NCBI GenBank assembly: GCA_003725745.1
Contig: RHDP01000001.1
Location: 3,735,001-3,799,000 of the forward strand
Source: Streptomyces sp. I6
Lineage (GTDB): Bacteria > Actinomycetota > Actinomycetes > Streptomycetales > Streptomycetaceae
Length of the DNA: 64,000 bases
Direction: 5' to 3'
Shown here: in pieces, positions 31,567 through 38,090 of the stretch
Position numbering within the stretch: position 1 is the stretch's first letter
Layout of the letters: the number at the start of each line of letters is the position of its first letter
Made by a program: the position numbers and the translations under genes
The notes under the pieces: generated by a model
Told to the model about the DNA's origin: nothing
The model's input: the letters and a program-made list of their open reading frames with translations, nothing else
Databases searched by the model: none

Positions 31567-31821
31567 ATGAAACCCGGAATCCATCCGGCCTACGGCCCCG
31601 TCGTCTTCCGCGACCGAGCGGCCGGATTCGCCTTTCTCACCCGCTCGACCATGACGAGCGACCGGACGGTCGAGTGGGAGGACGGCAACACCTATCCCGT
31701 CGTGGACGTGGAGATCTCCTCCGCGAGCCACCCCTTCTACACCGGCACGGCGCGGGTCCTCGACACCGCGGGCCGGGTCGAGCGCTTCGAGCGGCGCTAC
31801 CGACGGCACGAGGCCCGGTGA
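31567..31821 (+). CDS. rpmE2: 50S ribosomal protein L31 type B (zinc-independent)
   Basis: 84 residues from ATG 31567. [16 protein letters not shown] and [15 protein letters not shown] are diagnostic of type B L31. Cys is absent, so no zinc ribbon can form; this form replaces the zinc-binding L31 when Zur is derepressed. Its stop overlaps the next start by one base (TGATG). Second gene of the Zur-controlled operon. Confidence 0.95.
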
Positions 31822-32959
31822 TGGAGGGAAGGCTTCCCGTCGCGATCGTCGGCGGACTGCACTCCGACGCGCGAGCCGCCGTCGTCGCGAGGCTGCTGGC
31901 AGCCGTGGACGGCAGCGTCGCCCTCCACCACGATCTGTCGACCGCCGTCCGGGGCACCGTCCGGCGCAGCGTCCGCGACGCGACCGGCGTCCTCTCCGAC
32001 GGCGAGGCACCGCTCGTCAACGACTGCGCCTGCTGCGCCCTGCGCGAGGACCTCGTGCCGGAGCTGGAACGGCTCGCGGACGGCGGCCTGACCCGGCTGG
32101 CGATCGTCGAGCTGTGGGACTCGGTGGAGCCGAAGGCGATGGCCGAGGTCGTCGCGACCCACGGCGACCGGCTCAAGGTCACCAGCGTGATCACCGCCGT
32201 CGACCCCTCCCTCCTGCTGCCGTACCTCGCGAACGGCGACGACCTGATGGAGGCGGGACTGGCCGCCGCCCCGACCGACCGGCGTACGGTCGCCGACACC
32301 TGGGCGCGTCAGCTGGAGTACGCACCGGTGCTCGCCCTCGTCGGCGGGGACGGGGCCGACGAGGAGGACCGGGCCCTGCTGGCCCAGTTGCACCCGACGG
32401 CCCGCCGGGTGGCGGTGGACGGCGGCGATCTGGCCCTGGCCGCCCTGGCCGGCTTCGACGTGGAGGCCGCCGCGGCGGCGCAGCACCCGGCCTGCGCGCT
32501 GCTACCGCAGGAAGCGGACGAGTGCGGGGTCGGAACGTATGTCTGGCACCGTCGGCGGCCGTTCCACCCGGAGCGGCTGTACGCGGCGCTGGAGGACCTG
32601 ACCTGTGTCGCGGCCCGCAGCCGGGGCCGGTTCTGGCTGGCCGACCGGCCCGACACGCTGCTCGCGTGGGACGCGGCCGGGGAGCCCTCTGCGTGGAGAG
32701 CGTGGGGCCCTGGCTGGCCTCCCTCCCCGACGCGGCCTGGGAGATGGTCCCGCCCGTGCGCCGGGCCGCGGCGGCGCTGGACTGGCATCCGGAGCACGGC
32801 GACCGCTGCCAGCACCTGGTCTTCACCTCGCCGGGGCTGGACCGCGAGGGCCTGACAGCGCTGCTCGACTCCTGCCTGCTGACCGATGCCGAGTACGCCG
32901 CCGGCGCCGAGGCGTGGAAGCGCCTGCCGCCGGCCTTCGACTCCCTTCTGGAGGTATGA
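31821..32959 (+). CDS. CobW/COG0523-family putative zinc metallochaperone with degenerate P-loop (one frameshift)
   Basis: About 379 residues, translationally coupled to L31. The N-terminus [20 protein letters not shown] occupies the place of the GxxGxGKT P-loop but lacks the Gly-Lys-Thr. The metal-binding CxCC signature is intact ([16 protein letters not shown]), as is the ELWDSVEP segment. The frame breaks in the four-G run 32679-32682; one G restores [21 protein letters not shown]0523 proteins under Zur control are thought to deliver zinc to client enzymes using GTP; with this P-loop, GTPase activity is in question. Confidence 0.85.
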
Positions 32960-32960
32960 C

Positions 32961-34084: not shown

Positions 34085-34133
34085 GCGTGCACGTGCATAT
34101 GCTCATGCGCCTGCATGTGAACACGGCTATGAT
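34085..34133 (+). promoter_or_regulatory. Shared 29-bp motif (copy 1) and -10 box upstream of the DUF397 gene
   Basis: The motif at 34085-34113 begins GCGTGCACGTGCATATGC and contains the palindrome TGCACGTGCA. TATGAT at 34128-34133 is a strong -10, placing the motif across the -35 region. The second copy lies at 35443-35471 on the other strand, matching 24 of 29 bases. The operator role is inference. Confidence 0.6.
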
Positions 34134-34177
34134 CCGAGACAGTTGACACCTGAACCTTGTAACTCGGGGAGCGTCCT

Positions 34178-34416
34178 GTGCACGACGTGTACAACGGCAT
34201 GGCGGCCACAGAGCTTCACGGGTCGTCTGGCAGAAGAGCAGGCACAGCAACTCTCAGGGATCGTGCGTGGAGTTCGCGCGACTGCCCGGCGGGGACGTCG
34301 CGGTGCGCAACTCGCGCTTCCCCGAGGGGCCGGCGCTCGTCTACACGCCGGCCGAGATACGGGCCATGCTGCTGGGAGTGAAGGACGGCGAGTTCGACCA
34401 TCTCGCCGGCGGCTAG
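34178..34416 (+). CDS. DUF397 protein of a WhiJ-type regulatory cluster (one frameshift)
   Basis: Restored length about 79 residues, GTG 34178 with GGGGAG at 34166-34171. MHDVYNGMAATELHGS joins, after one added base near 34221-34229, to WQKSRHSNSQGSCVEFARLP, the DUF397 signature, then DVAVRNSRFPEGPALVYTP. DUF397 proteins are small partners of HTH-DUF5753 regulators in Streptomyces and act antagonistically in development. The HTH gene and an RsbW-like ATPase lie within 2.2 kb. Confidence 0.87.
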
Positions 34417-34858
34417 GCGCATTGCCTGAGGGGTTGTGAAAGTCCCTCCCGGCCCGCGACGCCCGGCCCGCGACGCCCGGACACGCACTCCCCGGAGCCC
34501 TTCGGGCACGGGAGCGCGGGAGGTGCCCCGGCGCCGCTTTGCCGGACGCATCCGAGCACGTCCCGTACGAGGGTGGCCCTCCGCCCTGCGATCGCACGCA
34601 CCAGACGCCGCCGGCCCCGCCCTGCGGGCGGACGCGGCTGCTTTCGCAACACGCCGTAGTCCATGCGGGTACCGGACCCGGCCCGCCCCCGCGGGAACGT
34701 TCGCACGGCGGGGCCGGCCGGATTGCGCCGACGGCCGGCAGGCCGAGGCCCGCCGGTCATCGGCCATCGGTCATCGGCCATGCGGCGGTGTCCGGCGTGG
34801 CAGGGGTGATCCGGGGCGCGCGGGACATCCGCGGCGGCAGGGCCGGGGCGCGGGAGGG
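34417..34858. other. 442-bp gap, nothing recognised
   Basis: GC-rich sequence between the DUF397 stop and the convergent end of the ATPase gene. Several open frames, none with a known protein, SD or clear hairpin. Confidence 0.5.
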
Positions 34859-35344
34859 TCACGCCGGGGGCAGGCGGAACAGCGCCCAGACGACCTTCCC
34901 GGTGAGCGGCCCCGCCAGCGGGTGCCAGCCCCAGCTGTCGCTGAAGGAGTCGACGAGGAACAGCCCCCGCCCGCACTCGGCGGAGTCCTCCGCCTCGCCG
35001 GCCACCGGACTGTCCTCGCTGGGGTCGCGCACGGCGCACACCAGCCGGCTCGTCCAGCGCATCAGATGGAGTCGCACCGGTGGCTCCTGGTCGCGCGGGG
35101 CGTCCGCGGGAAGGGCGTGCCGAAGCGCGTTGGTGACGAGTTCGGAGACGACGAGTGCGACGTCGTCGAAGCGCTCGTCGAGGTCCCACCGGGTCAGCGT
35201 CCTGCTGGTGAACTTCCGTGCGCCGCGCACCGCTTCGTAGCGGGCGGGCAGCGCGCACGTGGCGGAGCTGGACACGGCCGCGGGGTCGATCGGCGGAAGG
35301 CCCTGCCGTAACGGCTCGAGCATGGTCGATCCATTCGTTCCCAT
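34859..35344 (-). CDS. RsbW-like ATP-binding regulatory protein
   Basis: 161 residues from ATG 35344 (MGTNGSTMLEPLRQGLPP); the longer frame to 35776 runs through the shared regulatory region. GHKL ATPase motifs are complete: the N-box VVSELVTNALRHALP with its Asn, and the G-box ECGRGLFLVDSFSDSWGW. This type acts as an anti-sigma or signalling kinase. It is convergent with DUF397 and divergent from the HTH gene, giving the ATPase/HTH/DUF397 trio seen around whiJ-like loci. Confidence 0.9.
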   Translation of the reverse strand: MGTNGSTMLEPLRQGLPPIDPAAVSSSATCALPARYEAVRGARKFTSRTLTRWDLDERFDDVALVVSELVTNALRHALPADAPRDQEPPVRLHLMRWTSRLVCAVRDPSEDSPVAGEAEDSAECGRGLFLVDSFSDSWGWHPLAGPLTGKVVWALFRLPPA

Positions 35345-35442
35345 GCGAGGCACTCCCGGGAATCGCAGCTGTGGCGCTACAGCACGAACGAGCACGAACG
35401 AGTACGCAGGTGCGCGGGCTCCATGGTTCCGAATGCCCACAC

Positions 35443-35471
35443 CAGATGCAAGGGCAAATGCACGTGCACGC
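35443..35471 (-). promoter_or_regulatory. Shared 29-bp motif (copy 2) in the ATPase/HTH divergent region
   Basis: Read on the minus strand it begins GCGTGCACGTGCATTTGC, matching copy 1 (34085-34113) at 24 of 29 positions, including all of GCGTGCACGTGCAT. It lies 99 bp upstream of the ATPase gene. A direct repeat AGCACGAACG (twice, then AGTACG) follows at 35381-35406. Confidence 0.6.
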
Positions 35472-35658: not shown

Positions 35659-36551
35659 GTGACCGCAGTGGAGTCGTGGGGCTACCCCGGGCCGATGGCC
35701 CCGGCGGGGGGTCGGTGGTGCGCCGCATACTGCTGGGCTCGCAGCTGAGGCGCCTTCGGGAGTCGCGCGGTATCACCCGTGAGGCGGCGGGCTATTCGAT
35801 CCGTGCATCCGAATCCAAGATCAGCCGGATGGAGTTGGGGCGGGTCAGCTTCAAGGCCAGGGACATCGAGGACCTCCTCACGCTCTACGGCGTGACGGAC
35901 GAGGCGGAGCGCGCGTCGCTGCTCGGTCTCGCCAAGGAGGCCAACGTGGCCGGCTGGTGGCACAGCTTCGGCGATGTGCTGCCCGGCTGGTTCCAGACGT
36001 ACATCGGCCTGGAGGGCGCCGCCTCGCTCATCCGGATCTACGAGGTCCAGTTCGTCCACGGCCTGCTGCAGACCGAGGCGTACGCCCACGCGGTCGTCCA
36101 ACGCGGCATGCCCGGTGCGCCGGCCGCCGAGATCGACCGCCGGGTCGCGCTGCGCCTGGAGCGCCAGAAGGCCCTCGTCTCCGAGCGGGCGCCGCGCTTC
36201 CACGCCGTCCTGGACGAGGCCGCACTGCGCCGCCCCTACGGCGACCGCTCGGTGATGCAGGGCCAGTTGCGGCATCTGATCGAGGTCTCCGAACATCCGA
36301 ACATCACCCTGCAGGTCATGCCGTTCAGCTTCGGCGGCCACGCGGGCGAGTCCGGGTCGTTCACCATGCTGCGCTTTCCGGAGTCGGATCTCTCCGACAT
36401 CGTCTACCTGGAGCAGCTGACCAGCGCGCTGTACCTCGACAAGCCCGAGGATGTGGCGCAGTACGAGCGGGCGATGGAGCGCCTGCGGGAGGACAGCCCC
36501 GGTCCGGACGAGAGCCGAGACCTTCTCCGAGGACTCCTCCAACTCACCTGA
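35659..36551 (+). CDS. HTH (Xre-type) regulator with DUF5753, WhiJ-like (one frameshift near start)
   Basis: About 298 residues. GTG 35659 has GGGAG at 35652-35656; adding one G to the six-G run 35706-35711 reads MTAVESWGYPGPMAPAGGS into VVRRILLGSQLRRLRESRG. Without it the frame can start only at GTG 35676. The HTH segment is LRESRGITREAAGYSIRASE, followed by SKISRMELGRVSF. The remainder is the DUF5753 ligand or partner domain (ASLIRIYEVQFVHGLLQTEA). Such regulators control development with DUF397 partners. Confidence 0.9.
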
Positions 36552-36629: not shown

Positions 36630-38090
36630 ATGTCCTCCTTCTTCAGCGACCTGGCACTCCAGTACATCGATGGCGAATGGCGCCCGGGCAGCGGTTCCTG
36701 GGACATCATCGACTTCAACCCGTACAACGAGGAGAAGCTCGCCTCGATCACCGTCGCCACGGCCCATGAGGTGGACCAGGCCTACCGCGCCGCGGAGCGA
36801 GCGCAGCAGGAGTGGGCCGGCACCAACCCGTACGCGCGGCGGTCGGTCTTCGAGCGGGCCCTGAGGGTCATCGAGGACCGCGAGGACGAGATCGCCGAGG
36901 CGATCGTCGCCGAACTGGGCGGCACCCGGCTGAAGGCGGCCTTCGAACTGCACCTCGCCAAGGAGTTCCTGCGCGAGGCGATCCAGCTGGCGCTGCGTCC
37001 CGAGGGGCGCATCCTGCCGTCCCCGGTGGACGGCAAGGAGAACCGGGTCTACCGGCTCCCGGTCGGCGTGGTGGGCGTCATCAGCCCGTTCAACTTCCCC
37101 TTCCTGCTGTCCGTCAAGTCGGTCGCGCCGGCGCTGGCGCTCGGGAACGCGGTCGTCCTCAAGCCGCACCAGAACACGCCGATCTGCGGCGGTTCCCTGG
37201 TGGCCAAGGTCTTCGAGGACGCAGGCCTGCCCGCCGGGCTGCTGAACGTGGTGATCACCGACATCGCGGAGATCGGTGACGCGCTGATAGAGCACCCCGT
37301 GCCGAAGGTCATCTCCTTCACCGGATCCGACCGGGTGGGCCGGCACGTGGCAACCGTCTGCGCGGCCAACTTCAAGCACGCCGTCCTCGAACTGGGTGGC
37401 AACAGTGCCTTCATCGTGCTCGAGGACGCCGATATCGACTACGCGGTCGACGCCGCCGTCTTCAGCCGGTACGTGCACCAGGGCCAGGTGTGCATGGCCG
37501 CCAACCGCATCCTCGTGGACCGCAGGGTGGAGAAGGAGTTCACCGAGAAGCTCGTCGCCAAGGTGCGCACGCTGAAGGTGGGCGACCCGGCCGACCCCGG
37601 GACGCACATCGGCCCGCTGATCAACTCCTCCCAGGCGGAGGCCGTGTCCAGCCTGGTCGAGCAGTCGGTCGAGGCGGGCGCCACCGCTCTGCTGCGCGGC
37701 CGGACGGAGGGCAACGTGGTCTCCCCGTCCGTGCTGACCGGCCTCCCGGCCGACTCGCCGGTGCTGTCCCAGGAGATCTTCGGCCCGGTGGTGCTGCTCA
37801 TCCCGTTCGAGGGCGACGAGGAGGCGGTACGGATCGCCAACGACACCCCGTACGGCCTCAGCGGCGCCGTGCACACCGGTGACATCGAGCGCGGCGTGGC
37901 GCTGGCCCAGCGGATCCACACCGGGATGATCCACATCAACGACTCCACCGTGCACGACGAGCCGATCGTCCCGTTCGGCGGCGAGAAGTCGTCCGGCATC
38001 GGACGGTTGAACGGCGAGGCGATGGTCGAGGTCTTCACCAGCCAGAAGTGGATCTCGGTGCAGCGGGGCCGTTCGGTCTTCCCGTTCTGA
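36630..38090 (+). CDS. Aldehyde dehydrogenase (benzaldehyde/vanillin dehydrogenase-like)
   Basis: 486 residues, ATG 36630 with AAGGGAA just upstream. NAD(P)-dependent oxidation of aldehydes to acids. The cofactor region reads PFNFPFLLSVKSVAPALALG; the catalytic Glu is in LELGGNSAF and the catalytic Cys in HQGQVCMAANR; the C-terminal part has QEIFGPVVLL and PFGGEKSSGIGR. Closest by motif to the aromatic-aldehyde branch, but the substrate cannot be set from sequence. It stands alone between the HTH gene and a hairpin. Confidence 0.93.
   Translation: MSSFFSDLALQYIDGEWRPGSGSWDIIDFNPYNEEKLASITVATAHEVDQAYRAAERAQQEWAGTNPYARRSVFERALRVIEDREDEIAEAIVAELGGTRLKAAFELHLAKEFLREAIQLALRPEGRILPSPVDGKENRVYRLPVGVVGVISPFNFPFLLSVKSVAPALALGNAVVLKPHQNTPICGGSLVAKVFEDAGLPAGLLNVVITDIAEIGDALIEHPVPKVISFTGSDRVGRHVATVCAANFKHAVLELGGNSAFIVLEDADIDYAVDAAVFSRYVHQGQVCMAANRILVDRRVEKEFTEKLVAKVRTLKVGDPADPGTHIGPLINSSQAEAVSSLVEQSVEAGATALLRGRTEGNVVSPSVLTGLPADSPVLSQEIFGPVVLLIPFEGDEEAVRIANDTPYGLSGAVHTGDIERGVALAQRIHTGMIHINDSTVHDEPIVPFGGEKSSGIGRLNGEAMVEVFTSQKWISVQRGRSVFPF

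Follow-up and report, generated by a model that had tools for sequence, protein, structure and literature searches.

The analysed window is a 64-kb stretch of DNA, corresponding to positions 3,735,001-3,799,000 of a 7.05-Mb genome. Within it, a small DUF397 gene (+), a HATPase_c_2 gene (-) and an HTH_31-DUF5753 gene (+) are flanked by the gene of ribosomal protein S18 on one side and that of an aldehyde dehydrogenase on the other. Orthologous loci, as used throughout, are the best 80 of 582 confirmed matches. The genes and the codon of interest are:

34178..34416, + strand: DUF397 (BldB-like) gene; homologue present in 80/80 orthologous loci (best 80 of 582)
34859..35344, - strand: HATPase_c_2 anti-sigma-like (AbaA-like) gene, 161 aa (PF13581, E 2.4e-13)
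35309..35311, - strand: TTA codon, codon 12 of the ATPase gene, read from the sequence
35676..36551, + strand: HTH_31-DUF5753 (WhiJ-like) regulator gene (PF13560, E 1.1e-15; PF19054, E 1.5e-61)
36630..38090, + strand: aldehyde dehydrogenase gene (PF00171), the constant downstream neighbour; homologue in 80/80 (best 80 of 582)

This arrangement is that of a WhiJ-like cluster, with an N-terminal HTH_31/XRE domain joined to a C-terminal DUF5753 domain in the regulator, an adjacent DUF397 gene and an adjacent AbaA/RsbW-like ATPase gene; the PF13560, PF19054 and PF13581 matches are all above the Pfam cut-off. The HTH protein is 97% identical to its S. pacificus counterpart and scores 389 bits on the NCBIfam model NF058600 (cut-off 350), a model that also matches paralogues of other loci. 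The ATPase reaches 42 bits on the NCBIfam model RsbA_anti_sig, below the cut-off of 210. A homologue of its gene is present in 80/80 orthologous loci, and a TTA codon near the gene start in 79/80 (both best 80 of 582). TTA codons require the bldA tRNA. No PDB chain matched the sequence of the HTH protein or the ATPase at E 0.01, PADLOC gave no match, and AlphaFold2 modelling with 30 close orthologues yielded a mean pLDDT of 57.7, too poor for fold comparison.

The reading frame of the DUF397 gene is shifted in the window assembly, where the gene is 1 base shorter than in its nearest relative, L007; the L007 orthologue matches PF04149 with E 1.7e-19. Further HTH or DUF397 homologues of the same genome (L089, L092, L097 and L106) are likewise split between reading frames, and the assembly, in 2 contigs, has a completeness of 87%. 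Base-calling indels are likely on these three grounds. The same suspicion attaches to a GTPase-like ORF (metal-chaperone type by eye) at about 31740-32960, with an apparent frame change near 32690.

The 14-mer GCGTGCACGTGCAT occurs exactly at 34085-34098 (+) and 35458-35471 (-), as an earlier sequence-only reading of this DNA had pointed out; its count of 24 matching bases out of 29 also agrees with the 5 differences counted here. The same reading described a palindrome within the shared motif. The term is right for TGCACGTGCA, which in the 64-kb window is found only within the two copies, but the conserved unit extends beyond it. That unit begins at TGCA (TGCACGTGCATn TGCnCnTGCA) and, when read toward the gene it faces, consists of a 12-bp repeat present twice, in which TGC opens both 6-bp steps, 24 bp in total. 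The leading GCG lies outside the invariant unit, with 8/80 orthologous B sites (best 80 of 582) having a letter other than G before TGCA. The copies are 1.37 kb apart, and each is oriented toward the gene it faces. Their placement was also described correctly, copy A overlapping the presumed -35 of the DUF397 gene and copy B lying in opposite orientation within the divergent ATPase/HTH region, in front of the ATPase gene. The copies and the presumed promoter elements are:

34088..34111, + strand: candidate operator copy A, TGCACGTGCATA then TGCTCATGCGCC, with exact core; upstream of the DUF397 gene, overlapping its presumed -35
34105..34110, + strand: presumed DUF397 -35, ATGCGC, 17 bp before TATGAT, inferred from the consensus
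34128..34133, + strand: presumed DUF397 -10, TATGAT, at the same place relative to copy A in 59/80 orthologous loci (best 80 of 582)
35423..35428, - strand: presumed ATPase -10, AACCAT, with AACNAT here in 75/80 orthologues (best 80 of 582)
35445..35468, - strand: candidate operator copy B, TGCACGTGCATT then TGCCCTTGCATC; upstream of the ATPase gene, divergent ATPase/HTH region
35446..35451, - strand: presumed ATPase -35, TTGCAT within copy B, in 80/80 orthologues (best 80 of 582)

Judged from these presumed promoters, the second repeat would occupy the -35 position in both copies. At the DUF397 promoter, this position reads ATGCAT in 46/80 orthologues (best 80 of 582). The presumed ATPase -10, 17 bp from TTGCAT, is a weak match to the usual consensus. 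Two other elements lie nearby. A second conserved block, cGCATTcGGAACcATGGtcC (35418-35437, -), follows copy B toward the ATPase gene. GGAAC within this block resembles an ECF sigma factor -35, but its distance from a -10 is unconvincing for an ECF promoter. A tandem repeat of 10 bp, AGCACGAACG (35382-35411), situated between copy B and the start of the ATPase gene, scores above shuffles.

Across the whole 7.05-Mb genome, GCGTGCACGTGCATNTGC is found without mismatch at these two places only, whereas with up to 2 mismatches it is found at 6 places, compared to 7 for the backward-read control. Nor does the window show enrichment of the 14-mer when up to 3 mismatches are allowed (10 found vs 10.7 expected), which leaves the exact copies and their conservation to carry the case.

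Both copies are kept in 80/80 orthologous loci (best 80 of 582). Copy B reads TGCACGTGCAT[C/T]TGCCCTTGCATC in all 80 of these, being TGCACGTGCATCTGCCCTTGCATC in 78 and having T as the 12th letter in 2. Copy A retains TGCACGTGCAT in 80/80, with the second-repeat pattern present in 66/80 and missing from 14/80 (best 80 of 582). The mean information of B is 1.91 bits over 27 columns, compared to 0.91 and 1.34 bits in the near flanks and 0.26 bits beyond +60; this profile omitted the 8 loci with another letter before TGCA, which are counted in the motif tally. For A, the mean is 1.60 bits, with 0.32 and 1.04 bits in the flanks and 0.40 bits in the DNA beyond. The near flanks of B are thus partly conserved, and B is no island in neutral DNA.

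Conservation in the genus was followed with the pattern TGCACGTGCATNTGCNCNTGCA, allowing at most 1 mismatch and using the reversed pattern as a control. The pattern is present in 199/199 same-genus genomes, the control in 3. Exactly one forward and one reverse match are found in 174/199 genomes, a single match in 23 and three matches in 2. Among the places listed, the pairs are mostly on opposite strands and 0.9-2.3 kb apart, the exceptions being one pair 3.9 kb apart and one pair on two contigs. A class-wide sample includes 28 same-genus genomes, and in all 28 the best HTH homologue is preceded by a match no more than ~1.3 kb upstream (coordinates compared by eye). A search for the motif at other Streptomyces clusters had been proposed together with the sequence-only reading, and lack of conservation at orthologous clusters had been named as the outcome that would speak against it; this was looked for, and conservation was found instead.

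At 15/80 loci (best 80 of 582), a third TGCACGTGCA lies in a longer palindrome between the DUF397 and ATPase genes. These loci (L054, L058-L061, L063, L064, L066, L070-L073 and L077-L079) form a group around S. virginiae and S. katrae. The palindrome was considered as a further operator copy and set aside; it is read rather as a possible terminator hairpin, predicted to serve the two converging genes.

The distribution of the motif follows the HTH proteins, with 4/37 loci excepted, and the motif stands in front of cluster genes at orthologous clusters while being absent from paralogous clusters of the genome. The exact core was found at none of 28 other DUF5753 places in the same genome (some of which are pieces of one gene) and at none of 29 loci of the paralogue L090, although these control loci are about half as long as the test loci. 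A quick HTH tree of 63 rows was built with a midpoint root, including 41 HTH-family rows hand-chosen from 136 and a row, L257_p90, that duplicates L090. One branch, with an SH-aLRT support of 97, sets the core-bearing HTH proteins apart; their side of the tree holds 41 rows, 37 of them with the exact core. On this tree, core presence takes 3 changes, compared to 20.3 in shuffles.

The nearest own paralogue on the tree, L088 (support 89), is a neighbouring one and carries a variant, TGCAATTGCATCTGGGATTGCA, with the same skeleton upstream of its own DUF397 gene. An L088 orthologue was found in 4/61 genomes, and in 4/4 L088 loci (own included) TGCAATTGCATCTGGGATTGCA is identical over 22 bases whereas the flanks differ. 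Six further same-genus paralogues (53-61% identity) comprise 4 with related words, namely TGCAATTGCA in L286 and L289 and TGTAAGTGCA in L288 and L290, and 2 without a variant. The paralogue L090, present in 59/61 same-genus genomes, has another conserved block upstream of its HTH gene at L256-L285, roughly GGTGGCA.TCTGCT.A.caG.AgAtACgcA, which probably marks a different operator. A single motif thus fails to fit all WhiJ-like genes. A search for tandem repeats of 9-13 bp in intergenic DNA at the DUF5753 places of this genome put 9/35 gaps above the maximum of 20 shuffles, mostly with simple GC-rich runs.

Outside the genus, the bare pattern says little, since in the class sample of 296 genomes it occurs in 28/28 same-genus genomes but in 19/268 others, compared to 12/268 for the reversed control. 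Examination of 20 of the 24 outside-genus places gave 14 regions with an HTH homologue (59-64% identical) and 6 without. The case outside the genus is built on loci chosen by their HTH protein and not on the bare-pattern search. For this, 37 HTH-homologue loci were hand-picked among the matches listed, one of which (L230) was already known to carry the motif. A position weight matrix missed several sites in which the second element differs and was replaced by exact-core counts. The exact core is present at 33/37 loci and absent from 4/37, with 41 copies compared to a mean of 0.15 expected from 20 approximate dinucleotide shuffles. Among loci L196-L232, 25 of the 33 with a core carry it no more than 220 bp ahead of the start of a DUF397 or ATPase gene, with starts extrapolated from a profile; in the others it lies 339-468 bp upstream of DUF397 (4), upstream of HTH only (3) or near none of the genes (1). 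A few extra core copies occur elsewhere in these loci, and the gene orders differ from that of the window.

The second element varies there. Of 34 hand-chosen outside-genus sites, 15 have a second TGCA at +18 and 4 have one at +19; the one-base displacement fits a -35 box equally with a repeat. A further GCA is present at +24 in 12/34. Nine loci of the family coded f18 have CGTGC instead of TTGCA, and some outside-genus loci carry TTACAT or TTACAG. Separately, two overlapping cores, TGCACGTGCATATGCACGTGCA, were seen at L161:5376-5400 (f37 genome), a place that yielded no HTH, ATPase or DUF397 homologue; they may mark an extra target.

Copies A and B are very probably operators of the cluster's own WhiJ-like HTH-DUF5753 protein, predicted from the sequence to control both partner genes. 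The sequence-only reading had put forward such an operator as a candidate, and the conservation at 80/80 loci (best 80 of 582), in 199/199 genomes and at 33/37 loci, together with the HTH tree, supports it. According to the proposed mechanism, the HTH protein would bind the repeated TGCA steps in a 6-bp register, 24 bp in all, at sites that overlap two presumed -35 elements, belonging in A to the DUF397 promoter and in B to the promoter of the anti-sigma-like ATPase gene. It would thereby control the DUF397 and ATPase genes, with each copy pointing at the gene served. The DUF397 protein would release or modulate the HTH protein, and the output of the ATPase would be tied to bldA via the TTA codon. 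That the HTH protein should act on both A and B is expected by analogy with WhiJ9. As same-genus genomes hold, as a rule, just two copies, the system resembles a switch of local reach rather than the top regulator of a large regulon. In the ground state, the HTH protein may repress, a mode given a modest preference for its overlap with the -35; activation, favoured by the WhiJ9 precedent, would be only somewhat less probable.

The same protein might, however, bind the palindrome TGCACGTGCA only and activate both promoters from just upstream of the -35, TTGCAT being a mere -35 box. This is a variant of the operator reading, with which its odds overlap, and it retains a substantial minority share of the likelihood. 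It would accommodate the outside-genus loci in which TTGCA lies one base farther or is replaced by TTACAT or TTACAG, and according to the available text of one study, iosA is activated by WhiJ9 and the abaA paralogues are raised when bldB is mutated (PMC10294661). A mere -35 box agrees less well with the retention of TTGCAT, and not TTGACA, in 80/80 B sites, with ATGCAT in 46/80 A sites in spite of its being the poorer -35 (both best 80 of 582), or with the recurrence of GCA at +24 in 12/34 chosen outside-genus sites; these three features suggest recognition of the second element by the protein as well.

A quite unlikely reading has the word bound not by the HTH protein but by some other, global regulator of actinobacteria that controls the cluster. 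For such a regulator many sites would be expected, instead of the usual two per genome, and the core goes along with a single set of HTH proteins, is absent from other DUF5753 places and has a related motif at a neighbouring paralogue. Nevertheless, binding by the HTH protein is itself a prediction from sequence, and sigmaE binding studies, in their available text, list among the targets SCO3423 and SCO3424, which are likely to be the counterparts in S. coelicolor, so that other regulators do act here. A chance match or functionless duplication remnant, to which the lack of enrichment of the 14-mer at up to 3 mismatches could point, has a virtually negligible probability given the conservation in 80/80 loci (best 80 of 582) and 199/199 genomes and the recurrence at HTH homologues of other families.

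Building on the operator reading, a wider and rather doubtful proposal is that an operator code separates the WhiJ-type trios of one genome on the skeleton TGCA-NN-TGCAT-N7-TGCAT. A central CG would mark this ancient trio and AT the related trios (L088, L286, L289). Per genome of this genus, a single regulator with only two opposite-strand operators, mostly about 0.9-2.3 kb apart and perhaps joined in one loop, would set an anti-sigma-like output that is also bldA-gated, and the arrangement would be older than the split of several actinobacterial families.

Among known systems, the S. coelicolor counterpart is best sought in SCO3421/3423/3424, favoured by gene order and TTA codon over SCO1979, to which the NCBIfam match points. 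The numbering of SCO3421, SCO3423 and SCO3424 in the order HTH-ATPase-DUF397 fits the window, from which orthology may be inferred. The available text of the relevant papers reports the WhiJ-like gene SCO3421 in nearly all complex actinomycetes and describes SCO3424 as similar to AbaA and BldB (PMC4255298, PMC6767563). The anti-sigma-like gene beside SCO3421 is stated nearly always to have a TTA codon (PMC4255298), which fits the TTA in 79/80 ATPase orthologues (best 80 of 582). Unlike the window with its two copies, the SCO3421 system has no operator named in that text (PMC4255298, PMC6767563). Searches of the available literature returned no paper naming two of SCO3425-SCO3428 and rpsR2, and none on TGCACGTGCA with Streptomyces.

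The SCO1979 regulator resembles the window HTH protein in belonging to family NF058600, the cut-off of which the window protein passes. For a regulator cluster of a known kind, the window copies are predicted to represent an operator type that is new, although a study of SCO1979 by Zhu et al. in 2020 may already contain a related motif. SCO1979 binds upstream of its own gene, according to the available text (PMC12565409), and its DUF397 partner SCO1978 lies directly beside the regulator gene, unlike in the window (PMC10364602, available text). In Scr1/Scr2, other XRE-DUF397 pairs and BldB, a small DUF397 partner adjoins the HTH-DUF5753 regulator, as here, and the Scr1 orthologue Cpb1 binds the chiA promoter (PMC6262351, PMC10364602). 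For Scr1/Scr2-type pairs, phenotypes are given and, unlike for the window, no own-cluster operator is reported in the available text of these papers (PMC6262351, PMC10364602); none of the S. coelicolor pairs tested showed type II toxin-antitoxin behaviour (PMC10364602, available text).

In the literature found, as far as its available text goes, WhiJ9 of S. venezuelae is the only regulator of this type with a mapped own-cluster site. It recognises repeats within the divergent intergenic DNA of its cluster; iosA activation depends on it, and its loss doubles whiJ9 transcription (PMC10294661). The window system is like it in pairing a WhiJ-family protein with a site built of repeated short words, placed in divergent intergenic DNA of the protein's own cluster. 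The WhiJ9 repeats read CGXXCTCAAC (PMC10294661), whereas the window has TGCA, repeated at 6-bp steps where the -35 of two genes is presumed, and no WhiJ9-type repeats are found at copies A and B, since both word and period differ. Matches to three CTCAAC units, tried as WhiJ9 sites, occur in 25/101 genomes compared to 19 for the control and are mostly chance; L251 (8.22-Mb genome) does fit, with three contiguous repeats of period 10 beside a DUF5753 gene. Loss of BldB raises abaA paralogues, and the authors speculate, in the text available, that neighbouring WhiJ proteins drive abaA genes (PMC10294661). A 24-bp target in two promoters would make this speculation directly testable, and the same footprinting offers a route to operators in other trios. 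Regulators of this type are poorly understood, and their target thus becomes open to direct testing, with the word also standing beside relatives in other actinobacterial families.
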